Below are positions 11,496 through 42,007 of a stretch of DNA of 56,334 nt, one piece after another. Every line of letters starts with the position of its first letter. The stretch's first letter is position 1. The translations under genes were made by a program, and so were the position numbers. Origin of the DNA: Anaerolineae bacterium (GTDB lineage Bacteria; Chloroflexota; Anaerolineae; B4-G1; SLSP01); assembly GCA_025454475.1 (NCBI GenBank), contig JALOOJ010000004.1, positions 1 through 56,334 of the forward strand, written 5' to 3'. A model generated the notes under the pieces. The model saw only the letters and a list, made by a program, of their open reading frames with translations. It had not been told where the DNA came from and searched no databases.

Positions 11496-14400
11496 GTGCA
11501 CGCAGAGCTTAGGATCGAGATTAGCAGACTCGGTAACAGATATCTGGCCATTACCAGGCGCAACGATGGCCAAGAGATCCTCAGTAACGAGTTCCGCCAC
11601 GACTTCTCGAGTGTAGCCGGCGTCCAGCCGCAGTGGTTGCTCAGGACGCGGGGACGCCCACGATCACAACCAGAATCGCGCGGCAGATCGAACCCCTCTC
11701 AGGCTGCCGCGGATGGTCGCCGGCTCTATCGCTACCTGTTCGGCAATGGGAAGGGTCTGCGAGCCTACTTCGCCGAGCACGAGGTCGGCGCGCCGTGTCT
11801 CCTTACGCTGTCCATTGGCCACGAAGCCTACCCCCTGTGGCGTCTGCCGTGGGAGTATCTTTTCGATGGCAGGCAGTTTCTGTGCCTGGACGGCACATTC
11901 ATGCTCAGCCGCCGCCCCGCAGACCTGCGCACCCTTTCCCCCCAACCCGAGCTCGCTCCGCTGCGTGTCCTCGCGATCATCGCGAACCCTGAGGACCAAA
12001 CGACATTCGACGCGGCTGCAGTATCCGGTTCGCTTCTGGAGTCCGTTGAGCCCCTTATCAGCCAGGGTGTACTTGACCTGGAGATCCTCACCGAGCCTAC
12101 GTCATCGGCACTTCTCACGGCTGTAAGGGCAAGGCCCTACCAAGCCATCCACTTCTTTGGACACGGCGTCTACCATCTTGCACAGAATCAAGGGTTCCTG
12201 TGCTTTGAGGACGATGTTGCAAGGACGGCTTTGCTCAGCGGCGCGCAACTGCCGCGATACTTCGACGGAGGTGCCCCCCGCCTTCTCCTGATATCTGCAT
12301 GTCCTAGCGCTCAGGCCGGCGCACCCGACGCTTTCACCGGGGTTGCTGAAGCTCTGCTAGATCACGATCTTCCTGGCGTCGTTGTTACGCCGGCGCATCT
12401 CGATGCGCCCGCTGCTACAGCGTTCCTCAGAGCTACGTACAGTGCACTCGCCACAGGGCTTCCCGTTTGCGAAAGCCTCCAGAAGGGACGACTCGCGCTG
12501 AGCGTGTTCGATGAAGACAAGCCCCCTGACCAACAGCCCTTCAACTGGGGGCTACCGGCGTTGTACTTGCGAGCGCCCGATCTCAGGCTCGTTGATCCAG
12601 AGATAGCTGCGAGCGCGGATGAACCTATCGACGAGCCATCTGCTCTTGCGCCGGCAACGGACCATGCTCCTCTGGAAGACGCTATCGGACGGAAGCATGA
12701 AATCCAGACCATTCGTAAGGCGCTCCGTGCCGGCGATAGGGTATTTGGCATCTGGGGCAGCGAGGGAGTCGGTAAGCACCATCTGGTCTCGCAGCTTCTG
12801 GAACGCTGGAGCCCCAAGCCGAGCGCCATACTCAGGATCGAGTGCCGTACAATGGTGGAACCGCTTGCGGTGCTTGGGCAGATCGCCGATTTCTGGCGTG
12901 GCGCAGAACCGGGCACAGGCCTTGAGGCCGCAGACGTCTTGCTGGATCTACGCCTGAACCCTTACGAGCGCGCCCGCGCCGCAATGCAGCAGATGTCTGG
13001 CAAGCGGCATGTTCTCGTCTTCGAGGGTATCGATGCATGGTTCGAAGATGACACGGCGGAGCCAGGATCCATGGCCGATGCAACGGTGCGAGACGTTATC
13101 CTGGGCCTGCTGAGCGTTCCAGGCCGAACCACGTTCTTTTTCACGGGGGCACGGCGCTGGGCCGACCTGGCCAAGACAAGCGCCGAAAAACGGCGAGAAG
13201 TGCAGATCCCCCTCCTGCCACTCCAGCCGACCATCCGGATCATGCATCGGTGGCCAGAACTGCGGCAGCTGTCCTCCGAACAGAAGCAGGCCGTCTACTG
13301 GCATCTGGGCGGTCACCCAGAGGCGCTGCAGTTACTCGCAGGCTGGGTACGCACTGGCGGCGATCTCGCTTCACTCCTGACCAAGCCGCCAATCGCCGAT
13401 CGGGCCACACACGACTGGATCGTCTACTTGATCCGTGGGATTCTGGCTCAACTCGACCCAGGCGAATACGATGTCTTGCGCTCGCTCGCGATCTTGCGGA
13501 GGCCGTTCTCGGCGGACTTCCTGTCCAGGCTGACCCCGGTAGCCGCAGGGCACGCGGAGCGGCTTGCACGGAAGTGGCAGCATCTCGGGCTGATCAGAGC
13601 CATTCATCCGGCCGACCCCGCCAGCCTGACCGTTCAGCCCACAGCCCAGCGAATAATCGTAGCGAGCCTCAGCGCCAACGAGGCGCGCTTGCTCCACCTC
13701 AAGGCAGCCACCCACTATGCCGCGCCGTTGGTTGATGCCGCCCGGCGGCAGATCTTGGCCCGCAATATCACGGGCTGGTCGCAGGAACGCATCGCGTGGC
13801 TGGCAAGCGATGCTAACGGTGTGCTAGGCCTCTGGCTGCGCCAACCACCTGAGGGCGTGACGACAGCTGCAGTGTTGGAGCGCGCCATCGCCTGGCAATA
13901 TCATCTTGCGCTTGCTGGAGCAGCGGCTGATGCCGCGCACATCGTGCGGACCATCACCCCCGAGCTGAATCGCCAAGGGCAGCGAGATCTAGCCGCGAAG
14001 CTGGCCCAACAGACAGTGGGAGCGCCCGCCTTAGGTCAGGCGATTCCCGATAGCGGAGTTTCGGTCGGCGCGAGTCCACGTGCCGGCGATTTGACATCTG
14101 CCGCACAAGCCTGTGACCGTGCGCGCGATGACTTGGATCCGAAGGCCTCCGGCATCCAGCGCGCTGACCTGCTGATGCGGCTGGCCGAATCGCATCGCCA
14201 GATGGGACACCGCCAGGCTGTCGTGCAGCACCTGCGAGAGGCCTGCCAGATCCTGCAGCATGAACACGATAGCAGGAGTGAGGCTGAGTGCCTACACAAA
14301 CTTGCCGTGGCGTGTCGGGAGCTTCCTGATCACCGCCAAGCCCTGGTCTATAGCCAAGCGGCGCTCGAGCTCTTCGAATCCCTTACTTTACCCCACGGCC

Positions 14401-14747
14401 TGGCATGTGCCGAACGCGAACAGGGGCAGATCCTACGCGAGCTGGGATACCTCGACCAGGCACTGGAGCGCTTCGCAGCGAGTCTACGAACGTACCGCGC
14501 CTTGGACGACCGAGCCGGCATCGTCGCAAACCTGATGGACATTGGGTTATTGTTCGAGCGACTTGGCAAGACCGACATGGCCATCCAGGTGATAGAGGAA
14601 GCGCTGGAGCAGCATGAGTACCTGCGCAGCCCGGACCACGGCGAAGTCCTCTCGCTGCTTGAGCGGTTTTACGCCCAGCAGCAACGCCTCAACGAAGCTA
14701 TGGCCCGGTTCCGCACGGCAAGGCACGATACTGCTGCGACGCTCTAA
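11496..14747 (+). CDS. CHAT protease - STAND NTPase - TPR protein
   Basis: 1083 aa. Residues about 130-355 are a CHAT (caspase-fold) domain with the catalytic pair His223 (FFGHGVYH) and Cys269 (LLISACPSAQ). Residues about 400-640 are a STAND/AP-ATPase-like NTPase: P-loop GSEGVGKHH with Lys427, Walker-B-like VLVFEGID, sensor FFFTGARRW and a GHPEALQLL helix typical of NB-ARC relatives. The Walker A Ser/Thr is replaced by His428, so nucleotide hydrolysis may be impaired. After a helical region, residues about 915-1075 form TPR-like repeats, a likely sensor. The start is GTG 11496, 9 bases after der. Architecture matches bacterial NLR-like conflict proteins where ligand binding by repeats activates a protease. 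No partner gene is adjacent. Target is unknown. Confidence 0.82.
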   Translation: MHAELRIEISRLGNRYLAITRRNDGQEILSNEFRHDFSSVAGVQPQWLLRTRGRPRSQPESRGRSNPSQAAADGRRLYRYLFGNGKGLRAYFAEHEVGAPCLLTLSIGHEAYPLWRLPWEYLFDGRQFLCLDGTFMLSRRPADLRTLSPQPELAPLRVLAIIANPEDQTTFDAAAVSGSLLESVEPLISQGVLDLEILTEPTSSALLTAVRARPYQAIHFFGHGVYHLAQNQGFLCFEDDVARTALLSGAQLPRYFDGGAPRLLLISACPSAQAGAPDAFTGVAEALLDHDLPGVVVTPAHLDAPAATAFLRATYSALATGLPVCESLQKGRLALSVFDEDKPPDQQPFNWGLPALYLRAPDLRLVDPEIAASADEPIDEPSALAPATDHAPLEDAIGRKHEIQTIRKALRAGDRVFGIWGSEGVGKHHLVSQLLERWSPKPSAILRIECRTMVEPLAVLGQIADFWRGAEPGTGLEAADVLLDLRLNPYERARAAMQQMSGKRHVLVFEGIDAWFEDDTAEPGSMADATVRDVILGLLSVPGRTTFFFTGARRWADLAKTSAEKRREVQIPLLPLQPTIRIMHRWPELRQLSSEQKQAVYWHLGGHPEALQLLAGWVRTGGDLASLLTKPPIADRATHDWIVYLIRGILAQLDPGEYDVLRSLAILRRPFSADFLSRLTPVAAGHAERLARKWQHLGLIRAIHPADPASLTVQPTAQRIIVASLSANEARLLHLKAATHYAAPLVDAARRQILARNITGWSQERIAWLASDANGVLGLWLRQPPEGVTTAAVLERAIAWQYHLALAGAAADAAHIVRTITPELNRQGQRDLAAKLAQQTVGAPALGQAIPDSGVSVGASPRAGDLTSAAQACDRARDDLDPKASGIQRADLLMRLAESHRQMGHRQAVVQHLREACQILQHEHDSRSEAECLHKLAVACRELPDHRQALVYSQAALELFESLTLPHGLACAEREQGQILRELGYLDQALERFAASLRTYRALDDRAGIVANLMDIGLLFERLGKTDMAIQVIEEALEQHEYLRSPDHGEVLSLLERFYAQQQRLNEAMARFRTARHDTAATL

Positions 14748-17700: not shown

Positions 17701-18024
17701 AGGGTCAAGCCGCGCCGTAAGCCATATGCCGAGCGCGCCCAGGGCCATAGTCGTCATCCCCGGGTGCCCGGTCTGAGGAACGGCGGCCCAGTCGCCAGTT
17801 TCGACGGCCTCGAGGAGCTGATGGCTGCGTAGCACCCAGATCGGTTCATCCGGGGTGACATACAGCCCCAGCGGCATCAGGCGGACGAGAAGCGCCACGA
17901 CGAAGATCGCGGCACCAAGACTTCTCGTAGCACTATCCCCGCGTTCCGACGCCAAGCCGCCCGATTCTGACCGGCGGCCGCCCGATTCCGATCGGCTCTG
18001 ACGGTCGCGCCCCGACGCGCCCAT
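14758..18024 (-). CDS. GT-C fold (GT39/ArnT-like) membrane glycosyltransferase with large C-terminal domain
   Basis: 1088 aa. About residues 35-470 hold some ten hydrophobic helices; the first external loop carries TPDEP, the acidic motif of polyprenyl-phosphate-sugar dependent transferases, and AGKKFDRY resembles the lipid-phosphate-binding region. It would move a sugar from a lipid carrier to an external acceptor. The remaining roughly 600 residues are soluble, with beta-rich segments of the kind seen in other Chloroflexota GT39 proteins. The first 30 residues (Arg/Ser/Glu/Gly-rich) and a linker near residues 890-905 are encoded by copies of the dispersed hairpin repeat; a VSAAE tandem lies near residue 955. 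It starts one base after the stop of the GT2 gene, whose last codons supply the GAGGAG site. Confidence 0.78.
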   Translation of the reverse strand: MGASGRDRQSRSESGGRRSESGGLASERGDSATRSLGAAIFVVALLVRLMPLGLYVTPDEPIWVLRSHQLLEAVETGDWAAVPQTGHPGMTTMALGALGIWLTARLDPAGAAAHRDWIGRIASLAPENGAAFPHLVAFLPAGRVMVALVTAGGLALAYTIGRRRLGDRAARLMALFLALDPFVAGHSGLLHTDGLQATFVLLAILLAYPEGDVFPPRDCPLLASVRRKPTHGAPGIVAAALFLALAGLTKMLGLLVAPGLALAMLIWWKGSIWRRGARVAGLALLTVGFLVVLYPPMWVQPRSALQSLVSAVSYHEGIGLRPVFFVGETSTDPGPWFYLVVLVFRLTPPVLLGLLGFPWFRRGTTGDRSRRLAWALLSALSYLVGISVAGKKFDRYVLSVIPLLTLVAALAWLRRARAWRFGALASLALPWALVSVLPLQYASPLFGGPWGAQAVVPLGWGEASGLAAHWLNRQSSLAEGASVMTANVPGIAGLFDGQTWPWNEANVGCTDFVIGQEPALPAIYTLVADVWVAGRDQVRVYGYAPKASGLEPFVVPGPLPGIPADAVAPTADSDTLRTWLVQRLADGDAFTWVHAPKCYPLTEAQLRYVADAMAARGALVCESWSPVLGLATERCTVLSTLPQVAPFVARFGGGLDLVEVAWEHVVHTPRPLNIHLRWQAQVPLQEVEVYLALRSTEGADGIVWAEGGRRLLSDWGWAAPDWPVGQIIDTEAYIPLPLHLPPGTYSLVLRASGPQGAMGLATPDGVFGGTELILGNVQVMPASSAAGEIALSTHIDGSWPGLKALGAELPVDSVLAGQRLPFSLGLERVAGTPPAALHWDLVCGGVSHDDGELPLVAASVDRWPLGYRYVLRFAPRVGPDTPAGECTLFLGPSRSEARRSEAGGGSSPPLAADERVVLGAVVVEQRIRRYEAPEVFEVELDISADQWAELLGIDVSAAEDVSAAEGVSAMELGPGDSLSVTLYWRAQGDAAQDYTVFVHAVGPDDQVWAQSDAWPARGAAPTMTWTPGEIIADEHRLVLRDGAPSGIYTLYVGLYDAGAGSHVALFVNGERVPDDRVAVTTFEVVRQP
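15122..15162. repeat. 18-bp tandem repeat in the GT-C gene
   Basis: Two copies of an 18-base unit (15122-15139 and 15140-15157) plus the start of a third. On the coding strand it gives repeated Val-Ser-Ala-Ala-Glu. Each unit also contains CTCGGC C GCCGAG, an inverted repeat. Confidence 0.8.
15318..15347 (+). repeat. Dispersed TTCYGA hairpin repeat, copy F (two modules)
   Basis: CCGCT-TCCG-AGCGG (15318-15331, perfect 5-bp arms) followed by CGCT-TCCG-AGCG (15334-15345). Lies inside the GT-C gene in a linker; coding strand reads Arg-Ser-Glu-Ala-Arg-Arg-Ser-Glu-Ala. Confidence 0.8.
17941..18006 (+). repeat. Dispersed hairpin repeat, copy A (composite)
   Basis: GCGT-TCCG-ACGC (17941-17952), GCCAAGCC spacer, CCGAT-TCTG-ACCGG (17961-17974, one mismatch), CCGAT-TCCG-ATCGG (17982-17995, perfect) and a CTCTGACGG tail. 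Encodes the N-terminal Arg/Ser/Glu/Gly-rich residues of the GT-C protein. Confidence 0.8.
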
Positions 18025-25190: not shown

Positions 25191-25716
25191 TGGTTTCTCC
25201 CCCGGCGCGGCGGTGTTCTGAAGCCAAGGGGTCCGGTTCTGACCGGCCCTGACGGGCGTTCTCTGACGCGCGCTCGCGGATCACGTCCAACAGCGCGGTT
25301 AGGCCCAGCTGATAGCTACGCCACCCGAACCCGCTGATCTGCCCCACGCAAACCGGCGCGATCATCGACGTATGGCGAAAGGCTTCACGCGCGTGCACGT
25401 TCGACAGATGCACCTCAACAGCCGGCAGCCCAATGCCCGCTACGGCATCGCGCAACGCTACGCTCGTGTGCGTATACCCGCCGGGGTTGATCACCACGCC
25501 GTCTGCCCAATCCATCGCCCCCTGGAGAGCGTCGATCAGCGCACCCTCGCCGTTTGATTGAACGATGCGCAACTCGGCGCTGCAGTCCGTGGCGATCTCA
25601 CGAAGGCGCCGGTCGATCTCGCCAAGCGTGACCTTGCCGTATGTCTCCGGTTCCCGACGCCCCAGAAGGTTCAGGTTAGGTCCATGCAAGATCAGGATCC
25701 GAATAGGTCTCACCAC
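25174..25716 (-). CDS. aroQ: Type II 3-dehydroquinate dehydratase with repeat-encoded tail
   Basis: Dehydrates 3-dehydroquinate to 3-dehydroshikimate (third shikimate step). 180 aa; the enzyme proper is about the first 145 residues: [19 protein letters not shown] with the catalytic Tyr, [24 protein letters not shown], and [16 protein letters not shown] with the catalytic His. Family members end at about 145-150 residues. The extra 30 or so ([20 protein letters not shown] onward) are encoded by copy B of the dispersed hairpin repeat, so the tail looks acquired. It starts at GTG 25716 behind AAGGAGG; a second GTG follows directly. Stop overlaps the aminotransferase start. Confidence 0.93.
25215..25270 (+). 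repeat. Dispersed hairpin repeat, copy B (composite)
   Basis: GTTCTGAAGCCAAGG, then CCGGT-TCTG-ACCGG (25233-25246, perfect) and GCGT-TCTCTG-ACGC (25256-25269). It forms the 3' end of aroQ; three Ser-Glu dipeptides result on the coding strand. Confidence 0.8.
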
Positions 25717-35881: not shown

Positions 35882-36274
35882 TCAGCCCGCGATCCGTTGC
35901 AGCGCCTCTAGCGCTGAGGCCAGCGCATCGCCCATCGTCCGCAGCATCGTCTCGCGCGTCTGCAAGGCCTGGCTGACCATCGATTGGTGCATGTCCCAGA
36001 CCGAGCGATCGATCTGGTCGTTCGCATCTACAGGCAGACAGACGGTCGTGTCGCAGTCAAAGTCGATCTTTGTATAGGCGCGCAGCCGCAATTTGTCCGC
36101 CATTGCCTGATCTGCCAGATCTAGCTCGCCGCCTGCGAGCAGGGAGATCTGCGTACTGGGCATGCTGAAGGTTCGGACCTCAAGCGTGGTGACATCGCTG
36201 ACAAATGACTCGGCCTTGTTCGCCAGATCCTTGGTGAACTTCTCGATCGCGTACCTAAGCTCACTTTCACTCAT
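35882..36274 (-). CDS. Small helical protein related to the C-terminal domain of the adjacent peptidase
   Basis: 130 aa, last gene of the cassette. No known family recognised. It aligns over nearly its full length with the last 115 residues of the peptidase encoded at 37136-39457: an FT-x2-LA start, a T-LEV(R/K)T(F/Y)S segment against ITLDVKTYSTK, an RAYTKIDFDCD region against RALTRVAFDGD, and SVWDMHQSMVSQA against LALWEIHRSMVEEA. So it is a stand-alone version of that domain. The pattern is a beta-rich core flanked by helices. ATG 36274 is preceded by GGAGG; the open frame upstream to 36376 overlaps the previous gene. Role unknown; a shared partner-binding module or inhibitor is conceivable. 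Confidence 0.65.
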   Translation of the reverse strand: MSESELRYAIEKFTKDLANKAESFVSDVTTLEVRTFSMPSTQISLLAGGELDLADQAMADKLRLRAYTKIDFDCDTTVCLPVDANDQIDRSVWDMHQSMVSQALQTRETMLRTMGDALASALEALQRIAG

Positions 36275-36320
36275 CCCTATTCCTCCCGTAGTGAATGCCC
36301 TGTAGCGCTGTGCCTCGTGA

Positions 36321-37136
36321 TCAGGAACCGGAACCTGGTCCAGCATTCCAGGCGTATCCCGCCTCAACTGTGCCAAGCCGTCCGGTTCTGACCGGCTCTG
36401 ACGGTCTCTGTCGCTCCAGTTCCTTGAGAATGCTCCGAACGTAGTTATAGACTGCCGGAAGGAGCAGAACCTGCCCCCCAGGCACTGATGCCTTCAGTGT
36501 CAGGCTCAGGGCCCCCGACGTCACTACGCTGATCAGACGTAGCAGTGCGTGTCGAGACTCAAGCGCCAACCTGACCGCTTCCAGGTGCAACCCCATATCA
36601 GATGCAGTAGCGCCATCCAGCCACACCGTTTCGTAGTCACCTGTCCAGTCGACCGCAGTTAGCGCCACGCTCACGCCGCGAGTGGCAGTCTCGATCCGGG
36701 CAAAGTGATGGATCAGCCGCTTGAACTGCAGCAACAGGGCATTCGCCTGCTCGTAGACCTCGTGATACGCGGCCGTCGCAGCCTCGCCAAGGCCATACGA
36801 CAGCACGGGGCTCTGCAACGCCGCGATCTGAGCCAACAGCTCGGCCTCAGGGGCTCCAAATCCCAGGGCATAGGACGTCACAGGGCTAAGATCTGCCAGT
36901 CGCCGCGCCGCGGCGTCGAGGCTGTACTCCCACTGTTCCACTTTGGCGCGCTGCGCGAGCAGCGCCGTTTCGGCCTCCCGCGATGACGTCGGGTGGTCGA
37001 CACGCCAGATCAAACCGCGGTCATCACTCCCCGCCGCGTACGGCACGACCGGGGAGATAACCAGATCCCAAATGCCCAAGGGATCGAGTTCCTCGGGCGT
37101 GCTGAAGCCGGAGAACGTGAACGTCGAGGCGGCCAT
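36321..37136 (-). CDS. Uncharacterised protein of the peptidase cassette
   Basis: 271 aa, family not recognised. Residues about 55-150 are rich in Ala, Leu, Glu and Gln and look helical or coiled. A middle segment has GVSVALTAVDWTGDYETVWL, followed by long helices and SLTLKASVPGGQVLLLP. No signal peptide or clear membrane helix. The C-terminal 25 residues (RPSEPVRTGRLGT) come from copy C of the dispersed hairpin repeat. Its ATG overlaps the stop of the upstream peptidase by one base (TGATG), so the two are translationally coupled. I checked for gasdermin-like features because of the neighbours and saw none I could defend. Confidence 0.6.
   Translation of the reverse strand: MAASTFTFSGFSTPEELDPLGIWDLVISPVVPYAAGSDDRGLIWRVDHPTSSREAETALLAQRAKVEQWEYSLDAAARRLADLSPVTSYALGFGAPEAELLAQIAALQSPVLSYGLGEAATAAYHEVYEQANALLLQFKRLIHHFARIETATRGVSVALTAVDWTGDYETVWLDGATASDMGLHLEAVRLALESRHALLRLISVVTSGALSLTLKASVPGGQVLLLPAVYNYVRSILKELERQRPSEPVRTGRLGTVEAGYAWNAGPGSGS
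36371..36404 (+). repeat. Dispersed hairpin repeat, copy C (composite)
   Basis: GCCAAGCCGT, then CCGGT-TCTG-ACCGG (36382-36395, perfect) and CTCTGACGG. CCGTC (36378-36382) can also pair with GACGG (36400-36404). Forms the 3' end of the 271-aa protein gene. Confidence 0.8.
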
Positions 37137-39457
37137 CAGGAACCGATCTGCAAGCTATCCAGAAGCCTGGTTGCCAGCTCGGCCATCGTGGCGAGGAACC
37201 GTGCCCGGCTATGCTGTGCTTCCTCGACCATCGACCTATGGATCTCCCAAAGCGCCAGGTCGACGTTACCCGACTGACGGTCCCCAGCGCTGGTCTCTGG
37301 CACGTAGACCTGCAGATCGCCATCGAAAGCGACCCGCGTAAGCGCTCGCAGGTTCGCATCCACCTCGTTGCGCGCATCCAGCGCCGCGGCGACCGCCGCG
37401 ATATCCTTCGTGGAGTACGTCTTCACGTCCAGTGTTATGATGTCCTGCGCCGCACGGCCCAGGCTTGTCGCCAACTGATCGGTAAACGAGCGTAGTGAGT
37501 CCCGCAAGCGGTTGAACTGATCTCCAAGCCCAAAGGCAACGGCGGCATCGGCATCCAGGACGGCTACACGGGTGGCGGGCTCAGTCGCCAGTCTCTCGTG
37601 ACCATGCGGTCTGAGCGCCGCCCCAGCCCACGGCCTGGGCATCGGCTGCCCCCGTAATGGTGTCGATGGTCCGGCTGCCGCCTGCGACGCCGCAAACTGC
37701 ACTGTCCCAACGCCGGCTTTCGCGCTATCCTCAGTGGGCGCCGGTTCCTCGGGTTCCTGAATCTCGGGCTCCGGCACTTGCGGCGGTTCTGACCGCGGTT
37801 CTGACCGCGTGATCGTACCAACATCCTCTCGTTGCTTGGGCTCCGCCGCTTCCTGCACCAGAGTGAACCTTGCGGCGGGGTCGCCAAGCACGACGTAGCT
37901 ACGCGCATCGTTGTTCGCGGTCCAGCGGTGGGCCAGCTCATAGTCATCGAGGTGACTTGGATCCCACCGCAACTCCTCAAGATCCGCGCTCAAGTCAGAG
38001 CTCATCTCAGCATACCGCATGTTGAAGCTAGCATCGGTCGCCAGCCCAACGGGACCGCCGTTCATCAGCGTGCGCATCGCCGTGATGAATGATTGATGCT
38101 CTAGCTGCCCGCTTGGCGAGATGAAAGAATAGCCCCAGGCGCGCTCGACATGCCCCAGCACAGCCAGCGCACCATGCGCAAGTAGCTGCTGAGGCAACGC
38201 TGCAGTGAAGGCCTGTGGGGCGATCTTCTCGCGCACCTTGAATGCCTGGGCCGCGAACTGATCCAGCTCCGGCGTACCCGCGCCGTAGCACGCGAAAAAG
38301 AACGCAATCATGCCCTGCAAGTCAGCGCTATCGGCGATATCCTCACCCGCGAAGTAGTGCTCGCGAGCCACATCTCGACCCTGACCCGGCCAATCCTGGC
38401 AGAGCAGTGCTCCCTGTTGTCGCAACTGGGCAGGGTGCCCCGCCGGGAACTCGAGGCCGTGACATGCAGCAAACAGAAGCGCCGGCGTCTGAGCCGGATC
38501 ACCACCGAGCAGCGCCTCCAGACGGACGCGGGTCGCCAGCTTCTCGCCGACAATGGGCGTACCCACTTCCCAGGGAACGGACAGCGCCAGATCGTTCCCG
38601 ATCGTCTGCTGGGACAGGTTCTCATACAGCGGCTGGACCAGGTACTGCGCGCTCAGTTTTGTCGCCTTGTCGCCGGGATTCATCGGCGCGAAAAATGCCG
38701 CTCGGCGGGGAACGGTTCCCCCATGAGAACGATTCACCTCAGCAGCAACCACGGCGCGCGCATATCGGTCATAAGCGTCAACATCACTCCCGAAATCCAG
38801 GCGACCAACGCCACGCATCACATCGAGCTGGTACTGGAAACCATAGGGGATCTGGGCAGGCGTGCCCACCAAGAGCACATAGAAGGGCATCTCGCGGGGA
38901 TCTACAAGGCCTGGCCCTACCCCAAGACGCTCCAGGAACTGGTCCTTGCGCTCGCCAGGTCGGTAAGCGTCGCCGCCCTCGTAGAGCCGGAAAAACTCGC
39001 CGGCCTGAGTACGCCGCAGATCGAACAGGGGACGTAGCGCCTCTTTGATCTCCTCTCGCAACCTTGGGTGCATTTCCGCTGGGAAGACCGCCGCCCACCC
39101 CACATCCGCGACATTCGCGGGATCGCCTGCACCCGGCTTCACCGGGTATACGCCCCACTCTCTCGCCTTGCGCCGTAATTCATCGCGACGCACCTTGTCC
39201 TCGGTCGCCCGTAGCTCAACCTGTGCGTCGGTCACGCGCGTCAGACGCTCTTCGACCGTGGTGAGACCGGAGAGGAGCCGCTGACGATCCACGAATTCGC
39301 GGTAGTCCTGGGGAAAAGGCTCTCCCCGAATAAGCCGGGCAAGCGTCCGAGGCGACAGGGGCGGCTGTCCGTAGTCACCGGTCACGGCGTTGACGCCGTT
39401 GAACACCAGGTCACTGGTGTAGAGCGCCTCGCTTGTTCCCTTCAGGGCATCGGACAT
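37136..39457 (-). CDS. Caspase/gingipain-fold (C25-like) cysteine peptidase with C-terminal accessory domain
   Basis: 773 aa. N-terminal region (about 1-190) resembles that of the neighbouring peptidase (LVFNGVNAVTGDYG). Peptidase core about 200-580: PFYVLLVGTPAQIPYGFQYQ, then His333 in AACHGLEF and Cys390 in FFFACYGAGTP, the clan CD dyad, and the downstream GHVERAWGYSF and YVVLGDPAARF. An acidic Pro/Glu-rich linker (about 590-640) contains copy E of the hairpin repeat. Residues about 655-770 match the small protein encoded at 35882-36274. No secretion signal, so it probably acts in the cytoplasm. ATG 39457 has AAGGAG at seven bases. The substrate is unknown. Confidence 0.75.
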   Translation of the reverse strand: MSDALKGTSEALYTSDLVFNGVNAVTGDYGQPPLSPRTLARLIRGEPFPQDYREFVDRQRLLSGLTTVEERLTRVTDAQVELRATEDKVRRDELRRKAREWGVYPVKPGAGDPANVADVGWAAVFPAEMHPRLREEIKEALRPLFDLRRTQAGEFFRLYEGGDAYRPGERKDQFLERLGVGPGLVDPREMPFYVLLVGTPAQIPYGFQYQLDVMRGVGRLDFGSDVDAYDRYARAVVAAEVNRSHGGTVPRRAAFFAPMNPGDKATKLSAQYLVQPLYENLSQQTIGNDLALSVPWEVGTPIVGEKLATRVRLEALLGGDPAQTPALLFAACHGLEFPAGHPAQLRQQGALLCQDWPGQGRDVAREHYFAGEDIADSADLQGMIAFFFACYGAGTPELDQFAAQAFKVREKIAPQAFTAALPQQLLAHGALAVLGHVERAWGYSFISPSGQLEHQSFITAMRTLMNGGPVGLATDASFNMRYAEMSSDLSADLEELRWDPSHLDDYELAHRWTANNDARSYVVLGDPAARFTLVQEAAEPKQREDVGTITRSEPRSEPPQVPEPEIQEPEEPAPTEDSAKAGVGTVQFAASQAAAGPSTPLRGQPMPRPWAGAALRPHGHERLATEPATRVAVLDADAAVAFGLGDQFNRLRDSLRSFTDQLATSLGRAAQDIITLDVKTYSTKDIAAVAAALDARNEVDANLRALTRVAFDGDLQVYVPETSAGDRQSGNVDLALWEIHRSMVEEAQHSRARFLATMAELATRLLDSLQIGS
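37783..37808 (+). repeat. Dispersed hairpin repeat, copy E (two modules)
   Basis: GCGGT-TCTG-ACCGC at 37783-37796 and again at 37795-37808, both perfect and sharing GC. In the linker of the second peptidase; coding strand reads Arg-Ser-Glu-Pro twice. Confidence 0.82.
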
Positions 39458-39518
39458 GTCCAGGCTCCTTTCATACGTCCTGAGCGGTACCCAAGGACTC
39501 CCCTTCGGCCAACCATGA

Positions 39519-41885
39519 TCAGCCGACCTTATCCCGTTCAGGTGGTTTTCCCTGGTCCTGCGCAATGCCAGGGGGACTGAGCCGTACTGCGGGGTCGCCG
39601 ATAACGACATACCCGCGTGCATCGCTGTTGGCCGTCCACAGCTCGGCCAAACGATAGGCATCGTCGCGGGAAGGTGGGTCTGATAACCGATCATACAGGT
39701 AGGTCAACTCGGTCGCGATGGCCGCATGCCGCATGTTGAAGAAATCTAGCGCCGCACCCACCGGGTGGCCATCCAGCAGCCGCTCGATGGCACTGGCATA
39801 GACCTCAATGTGCTCCCGCTTACGGCTCTGCATGCCGTCAGGACGATAGGTTGCTTCCGAAAGGAACGAGAGTCCCCAGAGCCGCTCGACGTGACTGATC
39901 ACTGCTAGCGCCCCCCGGTTCTTGAGGGCTAGCATTGCCTTGGGCAATGCCGCAACAAACGGCGTCGTGGTGATCGTTGTAGCGTGCTGCCTGAACTCGC
40001 CCCGATGGTACTCATCGGTCTGAGGCGTGCCCGCACCAAAACAGGCAAACAGGAACACTATCGTCCCGCGCATGTTCAGTGCCCCCGTGACATCAGCAGC
40101 AGAAAGATAGGCGCTTGGCGGCACTACACCACGCTTCCCGGACCAGTCCTGACACAAGAGCGCTCCCTGCAAGTCACGTTGGCGGGGATCATCCGCACCG
40201 AACTCCATCCCATGCGTAGCGGCAAACACCAGGGCCGGTGCGGGGGTAAGCTGAAGTATCTTAAGCAGATTAGTCTTGATCGTCTTCTCTGGCGCGATCC
40301 GGACGATCTGCCAAGGAGCACCCACCGTTCTGGCACGAAAGTGCTGCGCCAACGGCGCCACGAGGTGTGTCGATGACAGGCTCGTTGCAGTGTCGCCCGG
40401 ATGATCCGTTCCGAAGAAGACAAGCTGCGATCCGACAACGTCTGGATGCTCCTCAACCGAGACCACATTGGACGCGTAGTTGTGATAGGCCTCCAAGCTG
40501 TCACCAAAGTCAAGGCGCCCCGCGGCATACTGCACGTCAAGCTGGAACTGGAACTCGAAGGGTATCTCCTCTGGACTACCCACGATCAGCAGGTAGTAGG
40601 GCACACCCGTGCTCTTGGGGTCCGCTGGATTCGCGGCGTCGGCATTGCGCGGCGGCCGTCGCAGAAACACACTGGCAGTATCGCCAGGGCGGTACCCGTG
40701 TCTGCCGGCATAGATCCGATAGAGGGGGCCGGCCTGCTGCTGCCGCCTCATCAGCAGGGGTGCCAGCGCTCTAAGTATCGACTGGCACATATCCTCTGAC
40801 ATTGAGGCCGCGAAGATGATACCCCAACCGGCCTCCTCGAGTCTCTTAGGATCTACCCATGGTACCGTGCCCAGTTGCCCGGTGATGCTGCGCCGCAGCT
40901 CATCCAACCAACTACGCATCACCGCGTGAACATCGTGCGGGCGCAGGGGCTGCCTGGTTCGTCGCAACGCCATAAAGACCCCACGCAGCCCGGCGACGAT
41001 CTCATGCCAGGAATCGAATGCGCCCACGACCGACAGGGCCGCCAGGCGCTGTCGGGCTTCCGACTGCGCGGCCCTGCCTTCACCGCGTAGACCGTTCAGA
41101 GTCCCAAGCCCCTGGATCAACGTCCGCAGCGGAGCACCGATCGCATCGATCCCAGGCAGCATCTTCAGAGAGTCCACCGGTAGCTCATCCAGGCCGCGGC
41201 AGAATCCATCGATCCAGGCAGAGCGCAGGATGCCTTGTCCATCGACTGCACCCGGGCCTTCGTCAGAAAGATGGGCTCGCCGCAGTGCGATCAGTGCCTG
41301 ATCGAAACGCGACTCAAGCGTCGAACGCAGTACCGCAGGATTTCCATTCCCACCCACGGTCCCAACCGCCTGGTCGAACAACCACTGCGCCAGCGTACTC
41401 CCTTGCCCCGCGCTTAAGGATTTGACGATTCGGGTGAACATCTCGACAGGCTCTTGTCTAAGCCTGTCAGCGAGGATCTGGACATCCCCGGGAAGAGGCT
41501 GCGACTTTCCACCAAACAGGATCGTGTAGAGCTTGCGCGCCGACTCGATATACCAAGTGTCAGGTGCCTGCCCTCCGGCCTTGAGAAACCCAACGATGTC
41601 CTTGACCAGGAATTCGACCATGGCCAGGACCTTGCGCTCACCCGACGCCCTATGGCTGAGCTCACGCTGGAGATCACGGAGCTGCCGCACGACGCTGTAG
41701 CGGTCAGCCAGGATTCGTTCGGTCAAGGCCTCGGCCGTCACCGGTTGCAGCCCGTACCCGCCCGTCGCACCTTTTATGCCGCTGAAGTAGAGTTTCTCGG
41801 TCACAAAGTCGCTCTCGCCTCGCGTTCCGAAGCCAAACCATCCGGTTCTGACCCGCCCGGTTCTGACCGGCTCTGACGGCCGCAT
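39519..41885 (-). CDS. Caspase/gingipain-fold (C25-like) cysteine peptidase, first gene of cassette
   Basis: 788 aa if it starts at ATG 41885. A long helical N-terminal region (about 40-380) precedes the peptidase core: PYYLLIVGSPEEIPFEFQFQ, His558 in AATHGMEFG and Cys615 in FLFACFGAGTP, then ISHVERLWGLSF and YVVIGDPAVRL. The His-Cys distance of 57 residues equals that of its neighbour, so the two arose by duplication, but the N-terminal region here is about 170 residues longer and it lacks the C-terminal accessory domain. The first 27 residues are encoded by copy D of the hairpin repeat; homology with the neighbour begins at VTEKLYFSG, so GTG 41804 may be the original start. AGGTGG precedes ATG 41885. 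Confidence 0.75.
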   Translation of the reverse strand: MRPSEPVRTGRVRTGWFGFGTRGESDFVTEKLYFSGIKGATGGYGLQPVTAEALTERILADRYSVVRQLRDLQRELSHRASGERKVLAMVEFLVKDIVGFLKAGGQAPDTWYIESARKLYTILFGGKSQPLPGDVQILADRLRQEPVEMFTRIVKSLSAGQGSTLAQWLFDQAVGTVGGNGNPAVLRSTLESRFDQALIALRRAHLSDEGPGAVDGQGILRSAWIDGFCRGLDELPVDSLKMLPGIDAIGAPLRTLIQGLGTLNGLRGEGRAAQSEARQRLAALSVVGAFDSWHEIVAGLRGVFMALRRTRQPLRPHDVHAVMRSWLDELRRSITGQLGTVPWVDPKRLEEAGWGIIFAASMSEDMCQSILRALAPLLMRRQQQAGPLYRIYAGRHGYRPGDTASVFLRRPPRNADAANPADPKSTGVPYYLLIVGSPEEIPFEFQFQLDVQYAAGRLDFGDSLEAYHNYASNVVSVEEHPDVVGSQLVFFGTDHPGDTATSLSSTHLVAPLAQHFRARTVGAPWQIVRIAPEKTIKTNLLKILQLTPAPALVFAATHGMEFGADDPRQRDLQGALLCQDWSGKRGVVPPSAYLSAADVTGALNMRGTIVFLFACFGAGTPQTDEYHRGEFRQHATTITTTPFVAALPKAMLALKNRGALAVISHVERLWGLSFLSEATYRPDGMQSRKREHIEVYASAIERLLDGHPVGAALDFFNMRHAAIATELTYLYDRLSDPPSRDDAYRLAELWTANSDARGYVVIGDPAVRLSPPGIAQDQGKPPERDKVG
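41822..41880 (+). repeat. Dispersed hairpin repeat, copy D (composite)
   Basis: GCGTTCCGAAGCCAAACC, then CCGGT-TCTG-ACCCG (41842-41855, one mismatch), CCGGT-TCTG-ACCGG (41857-41870, perfect) and CTCTGACGGC. Lies at the 5' end of the first peptidase gene. Confidence 0.82.
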
Positions 41886-41978: not shown

Positions 41979-42007
41979 AGTATAGCACACCAACCCAGTC
42001 ATTACAA
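41979..42007 (-). promoter_or_regulatory. Promoter of the peptidase cassette
   Basis: On the minus strand TTGTAA (42007-42002), 17-base spacer, TATACT (41984-41979). No other promoter is visible between the four cassette genes. Confidence 0.55.

Follow-up and report, generated by a model that had tools for sequence, protein, structure and literature searches.

What is the function of two gingipain-type peptidases which appear to lack export signals and are encoded together with two small partner proteins? This question is raised by a four-gene cassette in contig JALOOJ010000004.1 of the Anaerolineae bacterium assembly GCA_025454475.1 (4.8 Mb, 369 contigs), of which positions 1 to 56,334 were analysed; this whole stretch of 56,334 nucleotides is called the window below. 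We argue, with a probability of roughly 0.6, that the cassette supplies the peptidases and adaptors of a STAND-type conflict or regulated-cell-death system and has been orphaned in the window's genus. This reading draws its support from the predicted gingipain fold, the conserved catalytic dyad, a domain shared by one peptidase and both partners, the co-occurrence of the families, operons of relatives carrying nSTAND1 and CHAT-SIR2 genes, an nSTAND1-C25 fusion and purifying selection. The link to conflict systems rests on these relatives, not on the window's own genome.

The peptidases, their partners and a shared domain

Four open reading frames (ORFs), all on the minus strand, lie between 41804 and 35882, and a preliminary description of this DNA, which had placed two peptidases in one unit with a 271-amino-acid (aa) and a 130-aa protein, is borne out in this respect. 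The features are as follows.

41979..42007, minus strand: promoter-like site upstream of gene 1, TTGTAA-17-TATACT with TG before the second hexamer (consensus scan)
39519..41804, minus strand: gene 1, C25-like peptidase of 761 aa starting at GTG 41804, with an additional N-terminal region that looks helical; the longer ORF (788 aa) begins at ATG 41885
40896..41684, minus strand: N-terminal region of gene 1 (NTD1), from hidden Markov model (HMM) matches
39579..40856, minus strand: C25-like catalytic region of gene 1; His558 codon 40214-40212, Cys615 codon 40043-40041
37136..39457, minus strand: gene 2, C25-like peptidase with a C-terminal adaptor-like domain; 773 aa from ATG 39457
37868..39124, minus strand: catalytic region of gene 2, predicted gingipain/caspase fold; His412 codon 38461-38459, Cys469 codon 38290-38288
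37148..37507, minus strand: C-terminal domain (CTD) of gene 2, homologous to gene 4 and attached via a low-confidence Pro/Glu-rich linker
36321..37136, minus strand: gene 3, 271-aa partner (M3 family), overlapping the gene 2 stop by one base
36495..36674, minus strand: core of gene 3 common to gene 4 and the gene 2 CTD (hhalign)
36414..36551, minus strand: candidate C-terminal hydrophobic stretch of gene 3, two hydrophobic segments flanking a PGG turn (hydropathy, weak evidence)
35882..36274, minus strand: gene 4, stand-alone copy of the CTD (S4), 130 aa (homology)
41857-41878 and 36382-36403 (both minus strand), 25233-25254 and 17982-18003: window copies of the dispersed 22-bp repeat CGTCAGAGCCGGTCAGAACCGG (genome scan)

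Genes 1 and 2 are paralogues (40% identity over 479 aa), gene 1 having an extra N-terminal region of about 265 aa and gene 2 an extra C-terminal domain. In both, the catalytic His and Cys are separated by 57 residues (H558/C615, numbered in the 788-aa ORF of gene 1, and H412/C469, in the 852-aa ORF of gene 2), so the intact, equally spaced pairs of the two C25-like enzymes had been read correctly at the outset. Across 39 aligned catalytic regions the HG and Cys residues never vary, and in a larger set of loci the catalytic His is found in 55 of 55 and the Cys in 54 of 55 domains, the single exception being a Ser in the first half of a double protein; the pair has not been lost across orthologues. 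The AlphaFold model of gene 2 (mean predicted local distance difference test score, pLDDT, 82.7; catalytic part mostly >90) aligned with RgpB at Z 22.5 over 305 residues and with Kgp at Z 20.7 (VIA-align), and the next structural group, of separase and TPR-CHAT, followed at Z about 14 and below. Both window peptidases are thus predicted to adopt the gingipain-type two-subdomain caspase fold, the fold which had been proposed from the sequence and which the model of gene 2 supports.

Sequence profiles gave less. Scans of the four window proteins with Pfam, NCBIfam and PADLOC returned 0 matches, even at E 10, and sequence searches of the PDB were uninformative; PF01364 (Peptidase_C25) matched 25 of 37 homologues, with a best value of 3.1e-8 and one fusion passing the cut-off. 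The two C25 matches which the Pfam profile finds in the window's genome are both on other contigs. Judged by hydropathy only, there is no hydrophobic segment at the N-terminus of either peptidase (the highest-scoring 11-mers within the first 60 aa reach 0.64 and 1.14), in agreement with the earlier claim that a secretion signal is absent. NTD1 is restricted to the first peptidase of paired loci, as judged by HMM matches, and the catalytic domains bearing it form one clade with a support of 99 in the Shimodaira-Hasegawa-like approximate likelihood ratio test (SH-aLRT).

The two small partners had been described as unknowns, but they are neither independent nor unrelated. The final 130 residues of gene 2 have a homologue in gene 4 (33% identity, E 9e-16), and with a profile built from gene 3 proteins only, the leading matches outside the gene 3 family were gene 4 and CTD proteins (best E 1.2e-7), while none of the reversed decoys in the same database reached E 1. 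Using hhalign, the gene 3 core aligned to gene 4 and the CTD with a probability of 92.6 and a score of 48.8, against at most 17.2 in 40 column shuffles. On these profile comparisons, gene 4, the CTD of gene 2 and the C-terminal half of gene 3 carry one domain. In the model, the gene 2 CTD is composed of helix, strand, helix, beta-hairpin and long helix (pLDDT mostly 65-86), and by homology to it the second half of gene 3 should be made of helix, beta-hairpin and long helix; the 271-aa protein had been called helical, which is retained for the helices expected in this half but overlooks the hairpin expected beside them. In described conflict systems, effector-associated adaptors are found as a domain on the enzyme and as stand-alone proteins (PMC7159879, PMC10907252). 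Because the shared domain likewise occurs both on an enzyme and alone within one unit, we infer a role as homotypic adaptor, a parallel which suggests similar use and not membership of those families. In the Pfam scan of the partner families one CTD homologue matched Trypco1 weakly (E 0.1), and no EAD was among the families listed.

The likely starts of the four genes are GTG 41804, ATG 39457, ATG 37136 and ATG 36274, giving proteins of 761, 773, 271 and 130 aa, with 61 bp between genes 1 and 2, a 1-bp overlap of genes 2 and 3, and 46 bp between genes 3 and 4. The start of gene 1 was placed at GTG 41804 because ATG 41885 falls at the dispersed 22-bp repeat, and that of gene 2 at ATG 39457 has a good ribosome-binding site, the longer ORF being of 852 aa. 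The consensus scan found 3 promoter-like sites in the region against 1.4 expected, one of them upstream of gene 1, and transcription of all four genes from a single promoter is plausible. In comparisons of congeneric species, the number of non-synonymous substitutions per site (dN) is far below that of synonymous ones (dS) in all 4 genes, and synteny of the locus is conserved in the genus; the four genes are therefore real, and gene 3 evolves fastest. It may be noted that CGTCAGAGCCGGTCAGAACCGG has 16 copies in the genome at no more than 1 mismatch (reversed control, 0) and that two of these fall in cassette reading frames, in the long-start form of gene 1 and in the gene 3 tail, the non-conserved tail of gene 3 being a read-through of the copy at 36382..36403. 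That the Pro/Arg-rich beginning of gene 1 and the gene 3 tail might be functional was considered and rejected, as both are dispersed repeat.

Operons and neighbours in relatives

Of 149 near relatives, 30 have a homologue of gene 2; in wider samples, homologues turned up in 45 of 396 genomes from the class and in 26 of 400 from the phylum. Gene 3 was present in 16 of the 40 genomes searched, each of which has peptidase or CTD genes, and in 0 of 11 genomes without those. On the mapped loci it adjoins a CTD-bearing gene or lies one gene off, and in most of them the stand-alone gene 4 comes next, several gaps in the maps being contig ends. The cassette families co-occur strictly across Chloroflexota, and the partners are dedicated to the peptidases, as had been supposed.

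In the genomes G011 and G021, the cassette forms part of a single-strand run of CHAT-SIR2, nSTAND1, NTD1-C25, C25-CTD, M3 and S4 genes, separated by short gaps or overlapping; the Pfam names CHAT, SIR2_2 and nSTAND1 with WD40 were assigned on homologous loci. Most of this six-gene operon is also found in G009, G027, G038, G017 and G019, and in G067 one frame of 910 aa joins nSTAND1 directly to a C25-like domain (L171:4241-6970). Other neighbours in relatives include patatin, papain-like C1 peptidases (also as fusions), pairs of caspase C14 genes and CHAT-NACHT-TPR proteins. A CHAT gene lies within 10 kb in 18 of 49 loci, as compared with 1.8 expected from the genome-wide density of CHAT (Poisson P about 1e-12, an estimate which ignores the shared ancestry of the loci and in which the matches span many families). 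A link to programmed death or conflict had been proposed for the cassette; the CHAT-SIR2, nSTAND1-WD40, caspase C14 and patatin genes of the relatives uphold it, but the window's genome itself does not supply it.

In the complete form of such a system, the nSTAND1-WD40 nucleoside triphosphatase (NTPase) would be the likely sensor or switch, and CHAT-SIR2 a likely NAD-consuming effector with a caspase-like domain of its own. The NTPase may assemble the complex through its propeller and adaptor parts, and the domain shared by peptidase 2, gene 3 and gene 4 could then mediate a homotypic assembly that brings peptidase 2 beside gene 3. The paralogous peptidases might act in series, an initiator followed by an executioner, and activation would lead to cleavage of cellular targets or of gene 3, which would be a substrate or else an effector set free by the cut. 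The cell would then become dormant or die. A more detailed version, which we put forward as a tentative and rather unlikely one, has a self-assembling adaptor domain, present three times per unit, that would join the two C25-like peptidases to a membrane-acting gene 3 protein released by proteolysis; the full form would be gated by nSTAND1-WD40 and deplete NAD through CHAT-SIR2, and the window's genus would have rewired the unit to another trigger.

Several further arrangements were noticed. At L062:8633-15860, relatives of the cassette stand beside two caspase (C14) genes, and the CTD is separate from the peptidase instead of fused. Chloroflexia-type genomes encode proteins of 930-980 aa whose C25-like domain is divergent (L140:8334-11129, L142:8459-11272, L143:9215-12145), and the L140 protein, the one tested of the three, carries a papain-like C1 peptidase as an N-terminal fusion. 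Genome G622 has four tandem C25-like genes (L148:4139-13495). Three plasmid homologues (Nostoc, Planktothrix, Sinorhizobium), annotated as C25, adjoin CHAT, WD40 or ATP-binding genes; on the Nostoc and Sinorhizobium plasmids the C25 gene is preceded by a related protein of about 440 aa (L174:7639-8955, L176:7476-8804), which has an FSHGW motif near its start and looks hydrolase-like by eye. No phage match was found, and a search of viral contigs with short patterns, of low power, gave no relatives; with these results and only three plasmid relatives, a mobile or viral origin was left unsupported.

The orphan locus and rival explanations

In the window's genus the cassette sits between pheA/aro and glgX/nusA/infB genes, a position kept in G001 and G004. 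The operon-type nSTAND1 gene was absent from G001-G004 and gave a weak match in G000 in a genome search, and CHAT-SIR2 is missing from the genus locus and was not found elsewhere in the genus genomes. The nearest CHAT relative of the genus is unlinked and without SIR2; in G000 it is combined with an EAD7 domain and a beta-propeller. This G000 protein (L164:4641-7769, G000:C224) is 46% identical in its CHAT part to the operon CHAT-SIR2, and its relatives in G001, G002 and G004 are followed by a gene for about 1150-1250 aa, with an Ig-like domain in the two tested. In the tree of catalytic domains, the two window paralogues fall into the NTD1 clade (SH-aLRT 99) and the partner clade (100), both of which include full operons. 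Loss of the sensor and effector genes in the window's genus is the simplest reading, because G011, G017, G019, G021, G027 and G038, which are all the NTD1-C25 genomes outside the genus, have such genes nearby; the reverse, a later gain, may hold instead. As the operon-type NTPase and CHAT-SIR2 are missing in the genus, the module is orphaned and must therefore be driven by something else.

A number of observations weigh against an arm of a conflict system. On both sides lie housekeeping genes, an arrangement that is stable in the genus and atypical for a defence island, and the expectation that the locus would lie in such an island was not confirmed. Within 20 kb of the cassette in the window, no CHAT match and no strong nSTAND1 match was listed, and the CHAT-TPR gene of the window is 21 kb off and of different architecture. 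(This protein, 11496-14744 on the plus strand, matches PF12770 at E 5.4e-22 and TPR_12, and the full-operon CHAT weakly, with 54 bits.) In the Chloroflexia-type genomes G713, G510, G524, G460 and G587, the place just upstream of the cassette is taken by a conserved response regulator instead of an NTPase. Both CHAT and nSTAND1 genes are, moreover, common in the genomes compared, the CHAT statistic takes no account of phylogenetic dependence, and contig breaks in metagenome-assembled genomes hide some neighbours.

Could the cassette then serve signal-responsive regulated proteolysis, as a housekeeping or stress protease complex under two-component signalling, with genes 3 and 4 as substrate and adaptor and without any death output? 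The response regulator of the five Chloroflexia-type genomes would fit, as would a locus fixed between aromatic-biosynthesis and glgX/nusA/infB genes under purifying selection, as for a core function. But the nSTAND1/CHAT-SIR2 operon, the nSTAND1-C25 fusion, the patchy distribution (45/396) and the CHAT-adjacent plasmid homologues are left unexplained, and we consider this explanation unlikely. That the cassette is a functionless, decaying remainder after loss of the sensor genes is much harder to accept: although the operon-type NTPase is missing and the dispersed repeat has invaded the start of gene 1 and the end of gene 3, all four genes are intact in several congeneric species, with dN/dS well below 1 and with catalytic residues and synteny kept, and we regard a relic as very improbable.

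Peptidase-activated pro-effectors are an established theme (PMC12799240), and a gasdermin-like membrane attack, in which the peptidases would cleave gene 3 and the freed hydrophobic C-terminal hairpin would enter the membrane, has also to be weighed. Gene 3 is the fastest-evolving of the four, and the C-terminal end of its family members has a hydrophobic stretch (the best 19-mers average 1.78, and 18 of 25 members reach 1.6 or more) that the homologous CTD/S4 domains lack (mean 0.81). However, comparable maxima occur in C25 proteins of this set that look soluble (mean 1.43, max 2.31), so the gene 3 end may act on membranes but is equally likely to be a hairpin buried in the protein; the sequence scan, furthermore, gave no Pfam gasdermin match for the gene 3 family. 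Thus the hydrophobic end is possibly membrane-active or a buried hairpin, on weak evidence, and membrane attack as the function of the cassette appears doubtful, more so than regulated proteolysis.

Comparison with known systems

Gingipain-type proteases are known mainly as secreted enzymes. The cassette peptidases resemble family C25 (the gingipains RgpB and Kgp and the PorU-type sortases; PF01364) in the predicted two-subdomain caspase fold (Z 22.5 and 20.7), in a His-Cys dyad placed after two core strands and in the C25 profile matches of most homologues, but differ from it by a structural identity of about 12-15%, a dyad spacing of 57 and adaptor domains, and their relatives differ by operons with STAND, CHAT and SIR2 genes. 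In contrast to the secreted gingipain/PorU branch, no signal peptide (by hydropathy only) or secretion parts were seen, and the CTD of gene 2 is shared with the cytoplasmic-looking gene 4.

With the STAND/CHAT conflict systems (Kaur et al. 2020, PMC7159879; Kaur et al. 2021, PMC8195603), the relatives have in common a STAND NTPase, propeller repeats and both caspase-like and NAD-targeting effectors, and the small domain of the gene 2 CTD, gene 4 and the gene 3 core, fused as well as stand-alone, would be a comparable adaptor. On the other hand, C25 or gingipain is mentioned in neither PMC7159879 nor PMC8195603, the CTD/M3/S4 domain has no convincing Pfam match to an EAD or Trypco, and the NTPase, present in G011, G021, G009, G027, G038, G017, G019 and G067, is missing at the window locus. 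The PADLOC-DB 2.0.0 defence models had no match in the four window proteins and two single weak matches among 32 relatives (best E 0.031).

The caspase-nuclease (canu) loci and the AVAST/Hachiman pro-nucleases (PMC12799240) are likewise immune operons in which a protease is encoded along with partners of its own, but there a caspase or trypsin is paired with a metallo-beta-lactamase (MBL)-type nuclease, and the cassette has no nuclease partner. Bacterial gasdermin operons also pair a caspase-like protease with a neighbour of about 270 aa, whereas gene 3 shows no gasdermin signature in its sequence and its core recurs in gene 4 and in the CTD of gene 2. Craspase/TPR-CHAT (Csx29) and separase share the clan CD two-subdomain architecture, at Z about 11-14; in contrast to Craspase/TPR-CHAT, the cassette peptidases have no TPR, and no CRISPR neighbours were seen. 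PF12770 was not among the 25 most frequent of the 31 families matched by the peptidase set and had no match in the four window proteins.

STAND/CHAT systems and protease-activated effectors are already known (PMC7159879, PMC8195603, PMC12799240), and our literature search, covering few subscription journals, found no description of this gene set or of a C25-adaptor module. Here the same predicted gingipain fold is met in proteins without apparent export signals, whose relatives are wired to NTPases resembling nucleotide-binding leucine-rich-repeat (NLR) proteins and to an NAD-cutting domain. Homologues are ready for study in Chloroflexota and filamentous cyanobacteria, and in the orphan form nature would offer an example of a death module that is no longer coupled to its sensor. 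If the conflict-system reading is true, C25 would be a further class of protease, next to caspases, CHAT and trypsin, that serves bacterial immunity or cell death.

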